A stretch of DNA of 64,000 bases from Henriciella mobilis (lineage in GTDB: Bacteria > Pseudomonadota > Alphaproteobacteria > Caulobacterales > Hyphomonadaceae). Each line of letters begins with the position of its first letter. Position 1 is the stretch's first letter. The stretch covers positions 310,001-374,000 of the forward strand of contig NZ_QWFZ01000020.1 of assembly GCF_003576315.1 (NCBI RefSeq), given 5' to 3'. The translations under genes and the position numbers were made by a program. The notes under the pieces were generated by a model. It saw only the letters and a list, made by a program, of their open reading frames with translations. It was not told where the DNA came from and ran no database searches. Positions 43,878 to 53,200 of this stretch are shown here, piece by piece.

Positions 43878-44059
43878 GGACGAGGTGCGATAGAAGGAAA
43901 CCGGAAAGGTTTTCGTAACCTATCGGCGGATCATGCGCACACTGTTGAAGATGCTGCAGTTCATTCCGATTTTTTCCGTCACTCCACAGCCTCAAAAGCC
44001 GAGAACACTTGCAGAACATCCTATTGTTTGACGGAAAAATTTGTGCCCATATCCCGGCC

Positions 44060-44464
44060 ATGAAAAAGCTACTTCCCGCCCTGCTTCTTCTCGCCGCCTG
44101 CGCTCCGGAGTCGACTTCGTCCCTCTACTGGTCGGACGGTGACAGCGGGCGGCTCAACGGTCAGGACTTCCGGCTTCACGGGGTCGACGCGCCAGAAACG
44201 GGCGGTGTCGGTGCCTATGGCGGAGCCGAATGCGAGCATGAGCGAGAGCTGGGCTACGAGGCGAAGGAAGAGGTCGTCGAGTTCACGCGCGGCAAGTTTG
44301 CCTATTTCGGCAAGGAGTATGGCGAGGACCGATACGGACGCCTTGTCGTGGATCTCTTTGTCGATGGCCGAAACGTCGGCGACGAGATGGTCGGACGCGG
44401 CGTCCTGAGGCGCTGGGACTATGATGGCGGTGATCCGAAGCCGGCGTGGTGCAGTGGGCGATGA
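44060..44464 (+). CDS. Thermonuclease-like (SNase) lipoprotein
   Basis: It is 134 residues. The lipobox LLLAACA is followed by an OB-fold nuclease core: DGDSGRLNGQDFRLHGVDAPE (active-site Arg, Asp and Glu region) and YGEDRYGRLVVDLFVDGRNVGDEMV (second Arg). Compared with staphylococcal nuclease it is short at both ends. It is the last gene that looks host-derived before the prophage. Confidence 0.85.
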   Translation: MKKLLPALLLLAACAPESTSSLYWSDGDSGRLNGQDFRLHGVDAPETGGVGAYGGAECEHERELGYEAKEEVVEFTRGKFAYFGKEYGEDRYGRLVVDLFVDGRNVGDEMVGRGVLRRWDYDGGDPKPAWCSGR

Positions 44465-45052: not shown

Positions 45053-45265
45053 ATGAGCGACTTGCGCACCACTATTTATGTTGCAATCCGGTCCGCACCA
45101 AAGCGCGTGCGGGCCGGCCTTCGGGACCGGAATCCAACCATCGGCGATCGAGCGGCATCCGAGCTTGCGGAGATCGTGGAGAAGGCGGTTCAGCGTCACT
45201 TGGACTCTAAAACGCGCAAGGTTCAGCCTCCCGCCCCATCGGTTGGCGGCTGGGCCAACGACTAG
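45053..45265 (+). CDS. Small hypothetical protein (70 residues)
   Basis: The frame gives a 70-residue mixed-charge protein (SDLRTTIYVAIRSAPKRVRAGL, ASELAEIVEKAVQRHLDSKTRK) with a central amphipathic helix. It follows the Cas2-like gene by 40 nt. The upstream extension of the frame is antisense-like and is excluded. No family recognised. Confidence 0.5.
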   Translation: MSDLRTTIYVAIRSAPKRVRAGLRDRNPTIGDRAASELAEIVEKAVQRHLDSKTRKVQPPAPSVGGWAND

Positions 45266-45351
45266 CGGCGCGGCCGCCGGTGGATCGTCAGGACCAGCCA
45301 GACCAGGAAGACCACTGCCGCAGCCAACGCGCCGGCGAGCTGAGAGGTCAC
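45262..45351 (-). CDS. 29-residue single-pass membrane micro-protein
   Basis: A GTG at 45351 overlaps the stop of the T5orf172-like gene as GTGA, with GAGGAG at good spacing inside that gene. The product is a hydrophobic segment (LAGALAAAVVFLVWLVLTI) ending in a basic tail HRRPRR. The stop overlaps the convergent 70-residue gene by 4 nt. Too short for family assignment; hydrophobic toxins and phage membrane regulators have this form. Confidence 0.6.
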   Translation of the reverse strand: MTSQLAGALAAAVVFLVWLVLTIHRRPRR

Positions 45352-45800
45352 CCGTGCTCCTCTACCCATGCAAGGACGTCGGCCTTTGTGACCGGTGGCC
45401 GCTCGGCGTCGAGAGCATGTAGCCCCGCCATGAGTGCCCCCTTCAGGCTCCCATAGGTCTGCGCGTGCCGCTCCAGGAGGCGCAACTCATCATCGGAAAA
45501 CCGGAATACCGACGCTTTTGATTTCGGCGGGTCGCACTCCTCAAAACCCATCCGAGAGATCGTCTCATGGGCGTCTTCGACACTCAACTCGAACCATTCG
45601 GCGTTTCGCCGGAAGCCTGCGAGCTTTGCATGCACCGCCGCCTCTGCAGATGCCGGATCGTCCCCTAATCGATAGGTCCTTTTGAGGTTGAGCGGCACCT
45701 TCCATTGAGTCGCAACAGAGGCACGGCGATCAACTGGCGAGTGCGAATAGCCAATCTTGATCGCATCAGGTGCTTCCATGATGTAGAGGTAGCTGTTCAT
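45348..45800 (-). CDS. T5orf172/GIY-YIG-like protein with C-terminal ribbon-helix-helix-like domain
   Basis: It is 150 residues. The N-terminal domain (SYLYIMEAPDAIKIGYSHSPVDRRAS, later AEAAVHAKLAGFRRNAEWFEL) matches the T5orf172/MUG113 group of the GIY-YIG nuclease superfamily. The C-terminal 52 residues (FRFSDDELRLLERHAQTYGS, KADVLAWVEEHG) resemble the whole adjacent small protein. The ATG overlaps its stop as ATGA. Cleavage activity is not proven. Confidence 0.75.
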   Translation of the reverse strand: MNSYLYIMEAPDAIKIGYSHSPVDRRASVATQWKVPLNLKRTYRLGDDPASAEAAVHAKLAGFRRNAEWFELSVEDAHETISRMGFEECDPPKSKASVFRFSDDELRLLERHAQTYGSLKGALMAGLHALDAERPPVTKADVLAWVEEHG

Positions 45801-45982
45801 TTTTGCTGCTCCACCCACGCCATAACATCGGCTTTTGTGACTGGCTGTCTCTCCCCTTTGAGCGAGCGGAGCCCGGCCATCAGAGCGGCTTTGTAACTGC
45901 CATACTCTTCCTTCAGTTGATCCAGGAGTTCGGCCTCTTCAGGCGTGAACCTAAACGAACGGGGGACATAATCGGTGCTCAT
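45797..45982 (-). CDS. Small ribbon-helix-helix-like regulator
   Basis: It is 61 residues from ATG 45982: a short strand RSFRFT, helix PEEAELLDQLKEEYG, turn, helix YKAALMAGLRSLKG, then KADVMAWVEQQK. This is the RHH fold order used by small phage and plasmid repressors. No ribosome site precedes ATG 45982, but a predicted promoter puts the transcript start on it, so the message may be leaderless. In-frame starts at 46000 (ATG) and 46036 (GTG) are alternatives. Probably autoregulatory. Confidence 0.65.
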   Translation of the reverse strand: MSTDYVPRSFRFTPEEAELLDQLKEEYGSYKAALMAGLRSLKGERQPVTKADVMAWVEQQK

Positions 45983-45988
45983 GAAAAA

Positions 45989-46017
45989 TATGTAGTGCAT
46001 TGCAAACTTTTTTGCAA
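45989..46017 (-). promoter_or_regulatory. Predicted leftward promoter of the RHH operon
   Basis: On the minus strand TTGCAA (-35, 46017-46012) is separated by exactly 17 nt from TACATA (-10, 45994-45989). Initiation about 7 nt on falls at the A of the ATG at 45982. The -10 overlaps an 11-bp repeat copy. Confidence 0.5.
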
Positions 46018-46052
46018 TACCCCATTGACCATGCACTACGTATGCACTACAT
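45990..46052. repeat. Three copies of ATGCACTAC(A/G)T: operator-like iterons
   Basis: Copies on the plus strand at 46031-46041 and 46042-46052 are adjacent direct repeats (one base differs); a third, exact inverse copy of the second lies at 45990-46000. Two copies carry the -10 region of one of the two divergent promoters. Short spaced repeats are the usual operators of ribbon-helix-helix repressors. Confidence 0.8.
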
Positions 46053-46053
46053 T
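46025..46053 (+). promoter_or_regulatory. Predicted rightward promoter of the micro-protein genes
   Basis: TTGACC (-35, 46025-46030), a 17-nt spacer made of the iterons, and TACATT (-10, 46048-46053). The next gene begins at 46084 after a good ribosome site. Confidence 0.6.
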
Positions 46054-46083
46054 AACCCTATCAGAACAGGAAAGGACACTCTG

Positions 46084-46173
46084 ATGACAGCAACGACCAT
46101 CATGATTTCCCTGGTCGCCTTCACAATCGGGACCGCGTTTTTCGAGGCGCTTTTCGAGGAGAAGAAAAAGTAA
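46084..46173 (+). CDS. 29-residue single-pass membrane micro-protein
   Basis: ATG 46084 follows AGGAAAGGACACTCTG. The product has one hydrophobic segment (IMISLVAFTIGTAFFEALF) and an acidic/basic tail EEKKK. It is the first gene under the iteron-controlled rightward promoter. Function unknown; it could be a toxin-like or membrane-regulatory peptide. Confidence 0.6.
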   Translation: MTATTIMISLVAFTIGTAFFEALFEEKKK

Positions 46174-46180
46174 GTCCCGG

Positions 46181-46206
46181 CCCCACTTCGCGTCATGGCG
46201 GTGGGG
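46181..46206 (+). terminator. Hairpin after the first micro-protein gene
   Basis: CCCCAC (46181) pairs with GTGGGG (46201), with an inner CGC/GCG, followed by only TTTC. It may be an attenuator between the two micro-protein genes. Confidence 0.35.
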
Positions 46207-46247
46207 TTTCGGGGTGCCGGGTGACCGGCCAAACCGAAGGACCTGAA

Positions 46248-46328
46248 ATGACTGGAACACTTCTCTTCGGCGCTATCCTCGTCGTTCTCACCGTTGCCGG
46301 TGGTCTCGCAGGAATCAAGCGCCGCTAA
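46248..46328 (+). CDS. 26-residue membrane micro-protein
   Basis: ATG 46248 has GAAGGACC nearby. The product is a single hydrophobic segment (GTLLFGAILVVLTVAGGLAG) with the basic tail IKRR. It is followed directly by a terminator, so the two rightward micro-protein genes form one short transcript. Confidence 0.55.
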   Translation: MTGTLLFGAILVVLTVAGGLAGIKRR

Positions 46329-46334
46329 CCGCCT

Positions 46335-46357
46335 CGCCCGGACCCGCTTTCTAGCGG
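46335..46357 (+). terminator. Intrinsic terminator after the 26-residue gene
   Basis: GCCCGG-ACCCGCT pairs with AGCGGG-CCGGG around the loop TTCT, followed by TTTT. Confidence 0.75.
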
Positions 46358-46421
46358 GCCGGGTTTTGAGGTGAGAGGGGTCGCATCCCTCTCGGCTCTT
46401 TGACATTCAATGGAGTTTCGA

Positions 46422-47135
46422 ATGACGAAACAACCTACCAGCGCCGGGGTGGCCGGCGCAACACTGATCCTGATAGCAGGTGCCGTCCTGCTTGCGGTCA
46501 CCGCGGGATTTGCCTTCGTCTCCGGCCTTTACTGGCATGTGAGGCTGGCCGATCAGCCGGATGCGGTACGCTGGGGCCTGATTGGGCTTTCCGTCGCCGT
46601 GTCCTTCGCCGGCGCTTTCGGAGCGATCGCTGCGGGCATCAAGCGCAATGCTGCGATGTTCGTCGGGGCCTTCATCTTCATGGGGCTCGATTGCGTCCAG
46701 AACGCCTACGGGCTGCAAGAGCTGGATCGGCTGACGAATGGGGCGACAGAGGCCCAGGCTCGCTACGACGCGATGCTGGACAAGCTGGTCTCCCTGCCCA
46801 ATCCGAGCGCGACGGGGGAGATCCGAAACAAGGACACCTACCTGGACACGCAGGAAAAGCTTGGCGAGAATATCACCCTGCTGAAGACCGAACTCGAAGC
46901 ATCGGAAACGACCCGCTTCGAACTCTGGCAGGTCATGTCGGCCTTCGCGGCCGCTCAGTTCGCCCTGCTGATGCTTTTTGGCGGACTGGGACGCACACAC
47001 CGCCCCGAACCGCAGGAATCGCCCCAGCGCGTCCCTGTGCCCCAAGGCAAGAACGTCCATGTCTTCAAACCGAAGGTGATGGACGAACGGGATCAGAAAG
47101 CGTGGGCCAAGGTCAAAGCGAGGTCTCGCGCATAA
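46422..47135 (+). CDS. Multipass membrane protein of unknown function
   Basis: It is 237 residues. Three N-terminal membrane segments (GATLILIAGAVLLAVTAGFAF, WGLIGLSVAVSFAGAFGAIA, AMFVGAFIFMGLDCV) are followed by a helical soluble loop of about 85 residues, a fourth segment (FAAAQFALLMLFGGLG) and a basic tail. The start at 46422 has GGAG; TTGACA at 46400 may be its -35. No family recognised. Confidence 0.75.
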   Translation: MTKQPTSAGVAGATLILIAGAVLLAVTAGFAFVSGLYWHVRLADQPDAVRWGLIGLSVAVSFAGAFGAIAAGIKRNAAMFVGAFIFMGLDCVQNAYGLQELDRLTNGATEAQARYDAMLDKLVSLPNPSATGEIRNKDTYLDTQEKLGENITLLKTELEASETTRFELWQVMSAFAAAQFALLMLFGGLGRTHRPEPQESPQRVPVPQGKNVHVFKPKVMDERDQKAWAKVKARSRA

Positions 47136-47140
47136 AAAAG

Positions 47141-47166
47141 AGCCCCCAGCCGCAAGGCCGGGGGCT
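47141..47166. terminator. Bidirectional intrinsic terminator
   Basis: AGCCCCC (47141) pairs with GGGGGCT (47160) and T-runs flank it in both directions (TTTTT rightward, TTTTTT leftward). It ends both the 46422 gene and the leftward late operon. Confidence 0.9.
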
Positions 47167-50295: not shown

Positions 50296-53200
50296 TTAGG
50301 AGGAGAAGCTGTAGGAGCCGCGCAGGAGGCGGACTCGGCCATCACCGTCCGTGATGGTGGTTTCGAAGCGCCCGGTCTCGGTCTGGCCACCACCAGTGAA
50401 CGTGGCGGTCAGCTGCACAGTGCTGTCTGATGTTACCGAGCTTGTGATGGCGGTCTTCGGTGTCAGGGAGTCGGGATAGAGCTCGGTGCGCGCTTCATAG
50501 GATCCAGCGCCGCCGGAAATGTTGATGTTCGTACTCGCCACCACCGTGCCGGCGCCGCTGCGCGATCCGGTGAGGCTGCTATCGACATAACTGGCAGCGA
50601 AGTTGTTGTCGGCCGGCAGAGACGCGACATCTACCCAGCCGGATCCCGGCACGTCCCACTGCACAGTGTTCGTTTCGGTGTTCGCGTAGCCTGCCCAGCT
50701 TCCCGTGCTGGCCGGGCGGGCGGCTGTATTGCCTCGCCCATTGCTTGCCGTGGCCTGGTTGCCCTGCCCAGTGATCGAGGCCGCCACGCCCAGCGTCGTG
50801 ATGACAAGGCTTTCGGTGAGCGTCGTCGTGCCGTCGGCGCGCTTGATGTAGGCGCTTTCGAGACTGATCTGGGTGAGTGTGGCGAGGACGTTGAAGCCGG
50901 TGAGTTCCGAGTCGCCATAGGCGAGGCTGGACAGGGTTGCGAGCGCGCCTTGGCCGGAGATTGCTGCGGCTGTGTTCCCGCTGGTGACATCGGCACCCGC
51001 TTCGGCGGGTCTCAGGCTTTCGAAGAGCGACACCTCGTCGATTTGGACCCAGACAACTTCGCCGGTTGCGCTTGCGCCAGCGTTCCGGATGCCGCCGCTG
51101 AAACGGACCCTTGCAGCACCCGCCGGGAGCGCGGCACTATTCGCTGGCAACCCGGTCGTGGACTCTGCGTAGTAGCATTCAACCTCGACAATGTCGGTCC
51201 CGGAGCCTGTCTCCGCACCGCCAAGGTAAACAGTGAAATTCGGCGAAAGCGCCACGCCGTCTTCATCATAACTGCGCGCAATGATCTGCGGATTCCAGCT
51301 CCCTTCGTTCGTCAGGGACCGGACGCCTGCGCGCACGCGGTAGACCTTCCCGCTGACCGGGAAATCGGCTTTCGGGCCGCCTTCACTGTTATTGCCATTG
51401 GCCGATAGCGCACCCGATGCGTTGATCGGGGCATCTGGCAGGGAGTCGAGCGCTCCGACTGTGCTTTTCGTCCAGGTGCGCGCGGTCGGGCCGGACGTCA
51501 GGCTGCCGATTACCGCCGCAGCATCGTCTGCATTCAAGTCAGCGAGAGTGTCAGCCGTCGCGCCCGAACCCTGCCCATCAATCGCAGCAGCCGTGCCAAG
51601 CGAGGTAACGACAAGACTATCCGTAAGGCTGGTCGTGCCGTCTTCGCGCTTCAGGTAAGCCGAGCCAAGCGCTATCTGTGAAAGCGCGGCGATGGAGCCA
51701 AACCCTGTAAGTTCTGCATCGCCGTACGCAAGACTACTCAGCGTGGCCAGCGCACCTTGGCCGATAAACGCCGCCGCTGTTCCTAGCGACGTGCGCAAGA
51801 GCGCATCCGTCGCGCTTGTGCTGCCGTCTTCAAGGCGGACATTCGAGCCGAGTGTCGTGAAGGCGAGCGCGGCAAGTGAACCGAAGCCCGTCAGATAGCC
51901 GGAGCCGTAAGCAACGCTATCTTTCGTCGCAAAGGCCCCTTGGCCAGCTATCGCGGCTGCGGTGTTGCCTGAAGTTACATCTGCGCCCGCCTCTGCGGGT
52001 CGCAAGGACTCGAATATTGAAACCTCTTCAACAGTAAGCCACAAAGTCTCTGCCGACGCCGAAACGCCGCCATTTCTAATGCCAGCCGTAAAACGAACGC
52101 GAGACGCCCCCGCTCTTAATGAGGTCGCCGTTTCATCTATTGAAACGGTGCTATCTTTGAAAAGCCATTCAACTTCAACAATTTCGCCGGTTGACGTCTC
52201 TTCGGCAAACTGAACGACGCTGAAGTGACTCACGTCACTCGGGTATTTGTCGCCCGCCTCATCGAAATTCCATGCAATAATATGCGGATTCCATGTGCCA
52301 TCTGACGCTGTTGCCATAATGGCCGCACGCACTCGATAAACCTTGCCAGCGACAGGAAAATCAGCCTTAGGGCCTGCCGTTCCGGTGTTGCCGGTGCTGA
52401 CTGCGCCGCCACTCGGCCCTATGCTCGCGTCAACAGCGCCACCCGGAATACTAAAGGACGATGCGGACCAGGTTCGCGCGCTCGGCCTAAAGGCATATGA
52501 AGCAACCACAGCAGCAGCATCGCTAGCATTCAGGTCTTCAAGGGAGTTCGCGGTTGCGCCGCTGCCCTGCCCAGCAATTGCCGCCGCCGTGTTGTCGCCC
52601 GTCACATCGGCATTATCGTCAGGCTTGCCGCCATCATTCGTGACGCCGGACCAAGGGACAGCGGCCGCACTACCTGAGCTGGTTGCGGTCGCGTTCGCGG
52701 TGGTGGTCACTTCCTGGAAGTCGGACCACTCCCCATAGCGCTTGCCGTCATCGCCACGGTTCTCCACGCCGCGAAAGCGGAAGACATAGTCCCGCGAGGG
52801 CTGGAATCCCGCGTAGACCAGTGTCGAGCGGCGCGGGTCGAAGTCGAGGACAAAGGACTCCCCCGAGATGCCCGGAGAACTGGCCCCGTCCGAGAAGCCG
52901 TACTCCATTTCGGTGCGGTCAGCGATGATGTCGTCGAGATCGGCCGGCAGCGTGACAGCAAGCTGGATTCCCGGTGTCAGGTTTCCACCGCTCCCCAGCT
53001 CGACCGCTGTCGCCGTGACGCTCGGCGGATCAATGTCCGGCAGGGTGAGCGGATCGAAACTCGGCGGGGCCGACAGGTCGACCGCCGTCCCCTCATCCCA
53101 GACCAGCTGGGCCGGATCGATTTCTGTTGCGACAACTTCGATGCTGCCATCGAGGAAGCGGGTGACTTCATCGGCAACAAAGGTCTTGCCGGATGGAAAG

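Follow-up and report, generated by a model that had tools for sequence, protein, structure and literature searches.

Related immunity and nuclease systems

Arc and Mnt of phage P22 are ribbon-helix-helix (RHH) proteins. P22 has a variable second immunity region, immI, with small repressors and sieA (PMC8022706), and its SieA protein acts at the inner membrane, where it keeps phage DNA from being injected (PMC10883804). Odn (Gp88) of phage ICP1 is a T5orf172 nuclease with a domain homologous to the iteron-binding protein of its target, and it requires both the iterons and a glutamate (PMC8263062). I-TevI acts as a repressor when no cleavage site lies in range (PMC10448857). The present work concerns 64,000 nucleotides of Henriciella mobilis contig NZ_QWFZ01000020.1, called the window throughout, all coordinates being window positions. 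A 52-kb prophage in this contig carries a cassette composed of an RHH-like repressor, a T5orf172 protein fused to a second RHH-like domain, and a divergent membrane operon, all arranged around one operator.

Judged from its sequence, the cassette is best read as a swappable second-immunity cassette, similar to P22 immI, that carries an operator-directed nuclease similar to Odn; we put the probability of this reading at about 40%. What the sequences show is the shared domain, an operator whose layout is conserved, the conservation of key residues in T5orf172, and the recurrence and exchange of cassettes; binding, cutting, choice of target, exclusion and antitermination are what we infer. The repressor would bind half-sites of the GTAGTGCAT type and shut off its own gene and the divergent membrane operon. 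The T5orf172 nuclease would be guided to such operators because its RHH-like part is the same kind of operator-binding domain. On the DNA of a related phage or a rival cassette the fusion would cut. On its own operator, cutting would be prevented by repressor occupancy or by the lack of a cleavage site, and the fusion would add to repression; the behavior of I-TevI shows how self-cutting can be avoided. The membrane operon probably keeps the DNA of related phages out of the cell, and its boxA-like leader would allow transcription through the hairpins that precede the membrane gene.

The fusion protein, the repressor and their recurrence

The fusion consists of 150 residues and is encoded on the minus strand (45348..45800). 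Its N-terminal half matches the Pfam models MUG113 (2.8e-10, 41.1 bits, cut-off 22.3) and T5orf172 (6.8e-9, 36.6 bits, cut-off 20), and the domain is of the GIY-YIG fold. The RHH-like domain starts at about residue 97 and is 60% identical to the 61-residue repressor over 50 residues. Thus both halves agree with the preliminary description, which had recognized a T5orf172 protein with a C-terminal copy of the small protein's domain. Seven aligned T5orf172/MUG113 sequences have Y6, K15, G17, R25, E53, H57 and E68-W69-F70 in common, of which E53 occupies the position of the conserved glutamate of the T5orf172 domain. The only PADLOC match of the fusion is a candidate-defence T5orf172 model (PDC-S57, 4.3e-7). 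A Foldseek comparison with the PDB gave no match at E <= 0.001. The other fusion found, in genome record G789, scores 33.4 bits against MUG113 and 20.3 bits against T5orf172.

The fusion could also be mainly a co-repressor or autorepressor, whose RHH-like part binds the operator, alone or with the 61-residue protein, and which cuts rarely or never. We regard this as possible, if doubtful. In its favor, the fused domain of the window is nearest to its own partner repressor, with which it shares an operon; this is the main result that weighs against a model of simple attack on siblings. That a GIY-YIG protein can also repress its own gene is known from I-TevI. Furthermore, T5orf172 and MUG113 domains have a lysine at the position of the second tyrosine of GIY-YIG enzymes. 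Nevertheless, both fusions retain the arginine, the glutamate and the EWF residues, which is beyond the needs of DNA binding alone.

The 61-residue repressor (45797..45982, minus strand) has an RHH-like sequence pattern and weak fold matches, which include ParD2, MazE and TacA2 chains. Its RHH identity, as claimed earlier, has this much in its favor, although none of the sequence models from Pfam, NCBIfam or the PDB bears the label out; PADLOC lists AbiEi at E 0.02.

Repressor searches revealed seven distinct RHH loci: the window, G099, G075, L031, L032, L034 (record G789) and L037. L033 has the same cassette DNA as G099 and was counted with it, whereas L032 and L035 were merged by contig name, as were L034, L038, L039, L051, L059 and G789. 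The contigs of L031 and L037 end about 200 bases upstream, and these two were left out of the membrane-operon count. All five loci with a readable upstream side combine the repressor, the operator and a divergent operon that ends in a membrane protein and converges on phage late or lysis genes. The fusion accompanies the repressor in two of the seven loci and is lacking in five. This supports the proposal of one recurring unit made up of the repressor, the T5orf172 protein, a common operator and a membrane operon running the other way: the parts other than the fusion occur together in 5/5 readable loci, and the fusion joins the repressor in 2/7. The same plan with other repressors was found in L049, which was located via a hairpin, and in G019, located via the leftward micro-protein.

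Searches with single queries and alignments gave few further relatives. Query P0006 matched only its own genome among 150 relatives, as did alignment A2 among 385 genomes of the class. Alignment A1 matched three of 398 genomes of the order, its own included, and A2 found those same three among 105 genomes of the family. Alignment A4 recovered one locus from the genome contigs, on the G075 contig. In viral contigs, P0002 and the G075 repressor had no match and the G789 fusion matched only itself. In phages, P0001 and P0006 had no match and the G789 fusion had three Vibrio matches, in the N-domain. Two records of one single-stranded RNA phage that P0002 matched there (30% over the polymerase gene) were judged to be chance. 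In plasmids, P0002 gave three Streptomyces matches, also in the N-domain.

Exchange of cassettes between related phages

The prophages of G789 and G075 form a natural pair. Their alignment has 99.55% identity across 16,398 columns, and several other blocks match at 92-96%, but the cassettes differ from 19.1 kb on in G789. The G075 cassette has a repressor and no fusion. The G789 cassette has a different repressor, followed by the fusion and then by a third, startless RHH copy. The fused domain of G789 is closer to the G075 repressor (72% over 59 residues, score 212) than to its own partner (59% over 49 residues, score 113). In the comparison of this fused domain, synonymous divergence (dS) is 1.49 and nonsynonymous divergence (dN) 0.255, which indicates an old divergence under purifying selection. 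The third RHH copy lies between the fusion and a tRNA (L034:5979-6137, equal to G789:C1:21841-21999); cassettes thus appear to have accumulated at the attachment site.

The phage in G019 is a sibling of the window phage, with 80.7% identity over 1,898 bp of neighboring genes. Its homolog of the leftward peptide is encoded after a regulator that resembles helix-turn-helix proteins (Pfam HTH_3, E 0.0052, below the cut-off). The start of this peptide overlaps a short frame ending in ADVIAWIDRNT, which resembles the RHH tail ADVLAWVEEHG of the window fusion. The peptide homolog, the RHH tail remnant and the swapped repressor together support cassette exchange.

Such exchange could be the work of a selfish gene of the homing type: the fusion would cut the operator of fusion-free cassettes, and repair would copy the cassette over, switching the immunity type. 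G789 and G075 are near-identical phages with and without the fusion, as expected of a homing gene, and their cassettes have sharp edges between conserved flanking blocks. The startless RHH remnant beside the G789 cassette and the RHH tail next to the new repressor of G019 fit in too, and T5orf172 homing genes are located at exchange boundaries (PMC10448857). However, this is a single natural pair, and exchange has also occurred without a nuclease, since the cassettes of G019, G099 and L049 are fusion-free. No target site was found in both an intact and an interrupted form. Homing as the main role of the fusion is considered unlikely.

Operator and promoters

The operator lies between the divergent genes and has four half-sites, of which three are exact 11-bp boxes. 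One box, ATGCACTACAT (45990..46000, minus strand), covers the leftward -10 element, and the fourth half-site, GTATTGCAA (46012..46020, minus strand), covers the leftward -35 element. The other two boxes are on the plus strand: ATGCACTACGT (46031..46041) lies within the spacer of the rightward promoter, and a second ATGCACTACAT (46042..46052) covers its -10 element. The three shared elements reported earlier are thus present, but the fourth half-site had been overlooked. A 9-mer occurring three times in the 101-bp intergene was obtained in 3 of 20,000 shuffles. A scan of all 64 kb with one mismatch allowed gave at least three matches in 16 of 100 shuffles; this is weaker support for the boxes because the matches needed neither exactness nor clustering. 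The pattern GTA[GT]TGCA, which was composed after the sites had been seen, occurs exactly four times in the whole 52-kb prophage, always within 45992-46050. In related loci, with positions counted from the start of the repressor, five of seven have a half-site at -37/-38 and three of seven have one at -16; G099 and L032 have four half-sites each, 21-22 bp apart.

The repeats overlap both promoters, including that of the repressor gene. The leftward promoter (45989..46017, minus strand) has TTGCAA (46017-46012) as its -35 element, a 17-nt spacer and TACATA (45994-45989) as its -10 element, and ends 6 nt ahead of the repressor ATG. The rightward promoter, TTGACC-17-TACATT, is at 46025..46053 on the plus strand. 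The repressor message is possibly leaderless. The 6-nt gap between promoter and ATG is the top-scoring one in four of the seven loci (G099, L032, L031 and L037). It is not top-scoring in the window, G075 and L034; an alternative promoter in the window (gap 4, spacer 19) scores 9.0 versus 8.0 for the chosen one. A link between strand residue 13 of the repressor (Q versus S/T) and the box sequence was not used, there being only two related Q members (65% identical).

Divergent promoters, a common operator and a possibly leaderless repressor message would also be expected of the main lysogeny switch of the phage, one of the functions suggested earlier for this unit. This is very unlikely, because a S24/LexA-like regulator (NCBIfam 2.7e-11, below that model's cut-off) is found at the far prophage end and the half-sites are confined to the operator.

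Micro-proteins

The leftward micro-protein (29 residues, 45262..45351, minus strand) has a GTG start, a GTGA overlap with the fusion stop and one hydrophobic segment. Two membrane micro-proteins are encoded rightward on the plus strand, one of 29 residues (46084..46173) and one of 26 residues (46248..46328), with the Shine-Dalgarno sequence AAGGA at 7 nt and 6 nt, respectively. All five open reading frames (ORFs) of the preliminary description, namely those of the repressor, the fusion and the three micro-proteins, are at their claimed positions with the claimed overlaps.

The three micro-proteins do not recur together as parts of the module. Of them, only the leftward one has a homolog, a 27-residue ORF in the equivalent slot of G019 (E 1.0e-4, 60% over 25 residues), and is thus a real gene. 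The best matches of the rightward 29- and 26-residue peptides outside their own genome, among the 105 family genomes, have E 0.47 and E 0.128, and neither has a match at E <= 1 among 50,697 phage records. Elsewhere the rightward slot is occupied by a soluble 28-residue peptide (G075, G789 and L049), by a 52-residue protein (G789 and L032) or by a 36-residue membrane peptide (L049); in G099 it has no peptide with a clear ribosome site. G789, the sole other fusion-bearing cassette, has soluble rightward peptides and nothing resembling the leftward one. By the refuting conditions that came with the preliminary description, the RHH partner thus stands as part of the module and the rightward micro-ORFs do not.

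An RHH-like repressor with overlapping downstream genes, together with hydrophobic peptides of 26-29 residues, resembles a toxin-antitoxin system in which the RHH-like protein is the antitoxin and the nuclease or a membrane peptide the toxin; the ParD2, MazE and TacA2 chains among the weak fold matches point the same way. The repressor stands without the fusion in most loci, however, soluble peptides replace the rightward ones, and PADLOC offers nothing beyond the PDC-S57 and AbiEi matches given above. A toxin-antitoxin role, including the toxin-like unit suggested earlier, was rejected as very unlikely.

The divergent membrane operon

The rightward unit had been taken to end in a terminator after the second micro-ORF. 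A terminator-like hairpin with a U-rich tail is indeed located there (46331..46372, plus strand), but the unit continues through a second hairpin in a boxB-like position (46373..46393) and a boxA-like site, CTCTTTGACA (46396..46405), to a membrane gene at 46422..47135, all on the plus strand. The leader region has a minimum free energy of -51.2 kcal/mol (z -5.5), and no shuffle was as good. The boxA-like element T[CGT]TTTGACA directly follows the leader hairpin in six of seven cassettes (the five readable RHH cassettes, L049 and G019), the exception being L032. This pattern was derived from the sequences themselves; it has no match in the window's 43.9 kb of host DNA and one in the 52-kb prophage, and the host 16S leader served as a further control. 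In that leader, AGCTGTTTGACA follows a short inverted repeat, and the arrangement resembles the prophage leader. BoxA in rRNA is bound by NusB and NusE (PMC4807359), and by inference the boxA-like site may work in the same way. The combination of hairpin and boxA-like element ahead of the distal membrane gene was seen in the window, L009, L046, L034, L049 and L061.

Another hairpin, CCCCACTTCGCGTCATGGCGGTGGGG (46181..46206, plus strand), has exact copies in L049, L050 and the G789 contig. In L050, an otherwise different viral contig, the 26-nt hairpin follows a gene near the end, as if it were mobile. Searching the module with Rfam gave nothing at gathering score, and four sub-threshold rows were judged to be chance.

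The membrane protein of the window has 237 residues (241 if started from the ATG at 46410) and three strong hydrophobic segments. Superinfection exclusion by this part of the cassette is a fair guess. A membrane protein is present in all five readable RHH cassettes; the window protein has no homology found to a known exclusion protein, SieA included. Among the membrane proteins of the cassettes, only the G075-L034 pair is significant by BLASTP (29%, 5.6e-29), in a comparison that did not cover G099. At the DNA level, the membrane-gene regions of G075 and G099 are 68% identical over 931 bp. Part of the membrane protein at L049:3660-4475 resembles a peptidoglycan-binding domain (PF01471, E 0.0014, below the cut-off).

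Setting in the prophage

The window belongs to contig 13 of genome G000. The 51,996 bp from position 43905 onward recur without any difference at the end of contig 36. Because a 17-bp direct repeat also flanks them, this stretch is taken to be a prophage. The attachment (att) core, AAAGGTTTTCGTAACCT (43905..43921), marks its left end, with a second copy at the far end. The module is an accessory cassette at the att-proximal end, a location that the preliminary description had missed. The tail genes are transcribed leftward, in the direction of the module, and a terminator predicted on the minus strand (47141..47166) separates the membrane operon from the converging late and lysis genes. The far end also encodes a protein that is weakly similar to tyrosine recombinases, a tentative label because the Pfam integrase model did not list that protein in the search of its own genome.

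The two identical prophage copies, at the ends of contigs C13 and C36, both stop at the att core. This suggests that the culture used for sequencing contained phage DNA in circular, tandem or duplicated form. A gene a short way in from the prophage end, at 44009-44464, encodes a Staphylococcal-nuclease-like protein (PF00565, 1.4e-7) with a lipoprotein-like start and is possibly a lysogenic conversion gene. A 195-bp repeat (68%) occurs at 50762-50956 and 51569-51763, within the gene of a 1549-residue tail protein.

Comparison with described systems

If the immunity-cassette reading is right, the logic of Odn, a nuclease with a borrowed DNA-binding domain, extends to temperate phages with the repressor operator as target. 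It would give a phage a direct route to attack siblings by immunity type and would explain the swapping of cassettes between otherwise near-identical prophages, for which G789 and G075 are a ready natural experiment. The recurring hairpin and boxA leader would be a further example of antitermination in the style of host rRNA, in this case for an accessory gene of a prophage. A bolder version is rather unlikely: the cassette would come armed with a nuclease that a copy of the repressor's DNA-binding domain directs to rival operators, which destroys or converts siblings and so drives immunity exchange, and the membrane operon would be read via host rRNA-type antitermination at the hairpin and boxA.

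The text of a survey of T5orf172 proteins has no mention of ribbon-helix-helix (PMC10448857). None of the 22 papers with T5orf172 in the literature covered, which has few subscription papers, combines it with ribbon-helix-helix, so that absence is not proven.

The cassette shares with the immI/SieA system its place as a second immunity region in the late genome half, the small repressor and high variability between phages, and its membrane protein may correspond to the inner-membrane exclusion protein of P22 (PMC8022706, PMC10883804). The window cassette is separate from the main-type regulator, as an immI-type region should be. It was not filed as immI because none of its ORFs is an antirepressor gene (ant), and, unlike in immI, its second DNA-binding protein has a nuclease domain. 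I-TevI of T4 is likewise a GIY-YIG nuclease with a C-terminal DNA-binding domain able to repress, but it differs in its zinc-finger linker, in the helix-turn-helix type of its domain and in homing to an intron site (PMC10448857). The T5orf172 homing endonucleases also combine T5orf172 with a separate DNA-binding domain and lie at exchange boundaries, but 200 of 229 have CapR, DUF723 or DUF4397 zinc fingers (PMC10448857). Odn, from a Vibrio phage, is similar in that a T5orf172 domain with the catalytic Arg and Glu kept is fused to a DNA-binding domain whose homolog is a protein that binds the repeats of a related element, and in that the target is built of repeats (PMC8263062). Odn has a RepA_N domain and cuts a satellite replication origin (PMC8263062), whereas the window system has an RHH-like domain, its repeats form an operator for transcription, the adjacent gene encodes the cognate repressor, the phage is temperate, and cutting is only predicted. 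The cassette would thus combine two known kinds of element, a second-immunity cassette and a chimeric T5orf172 nuclease.
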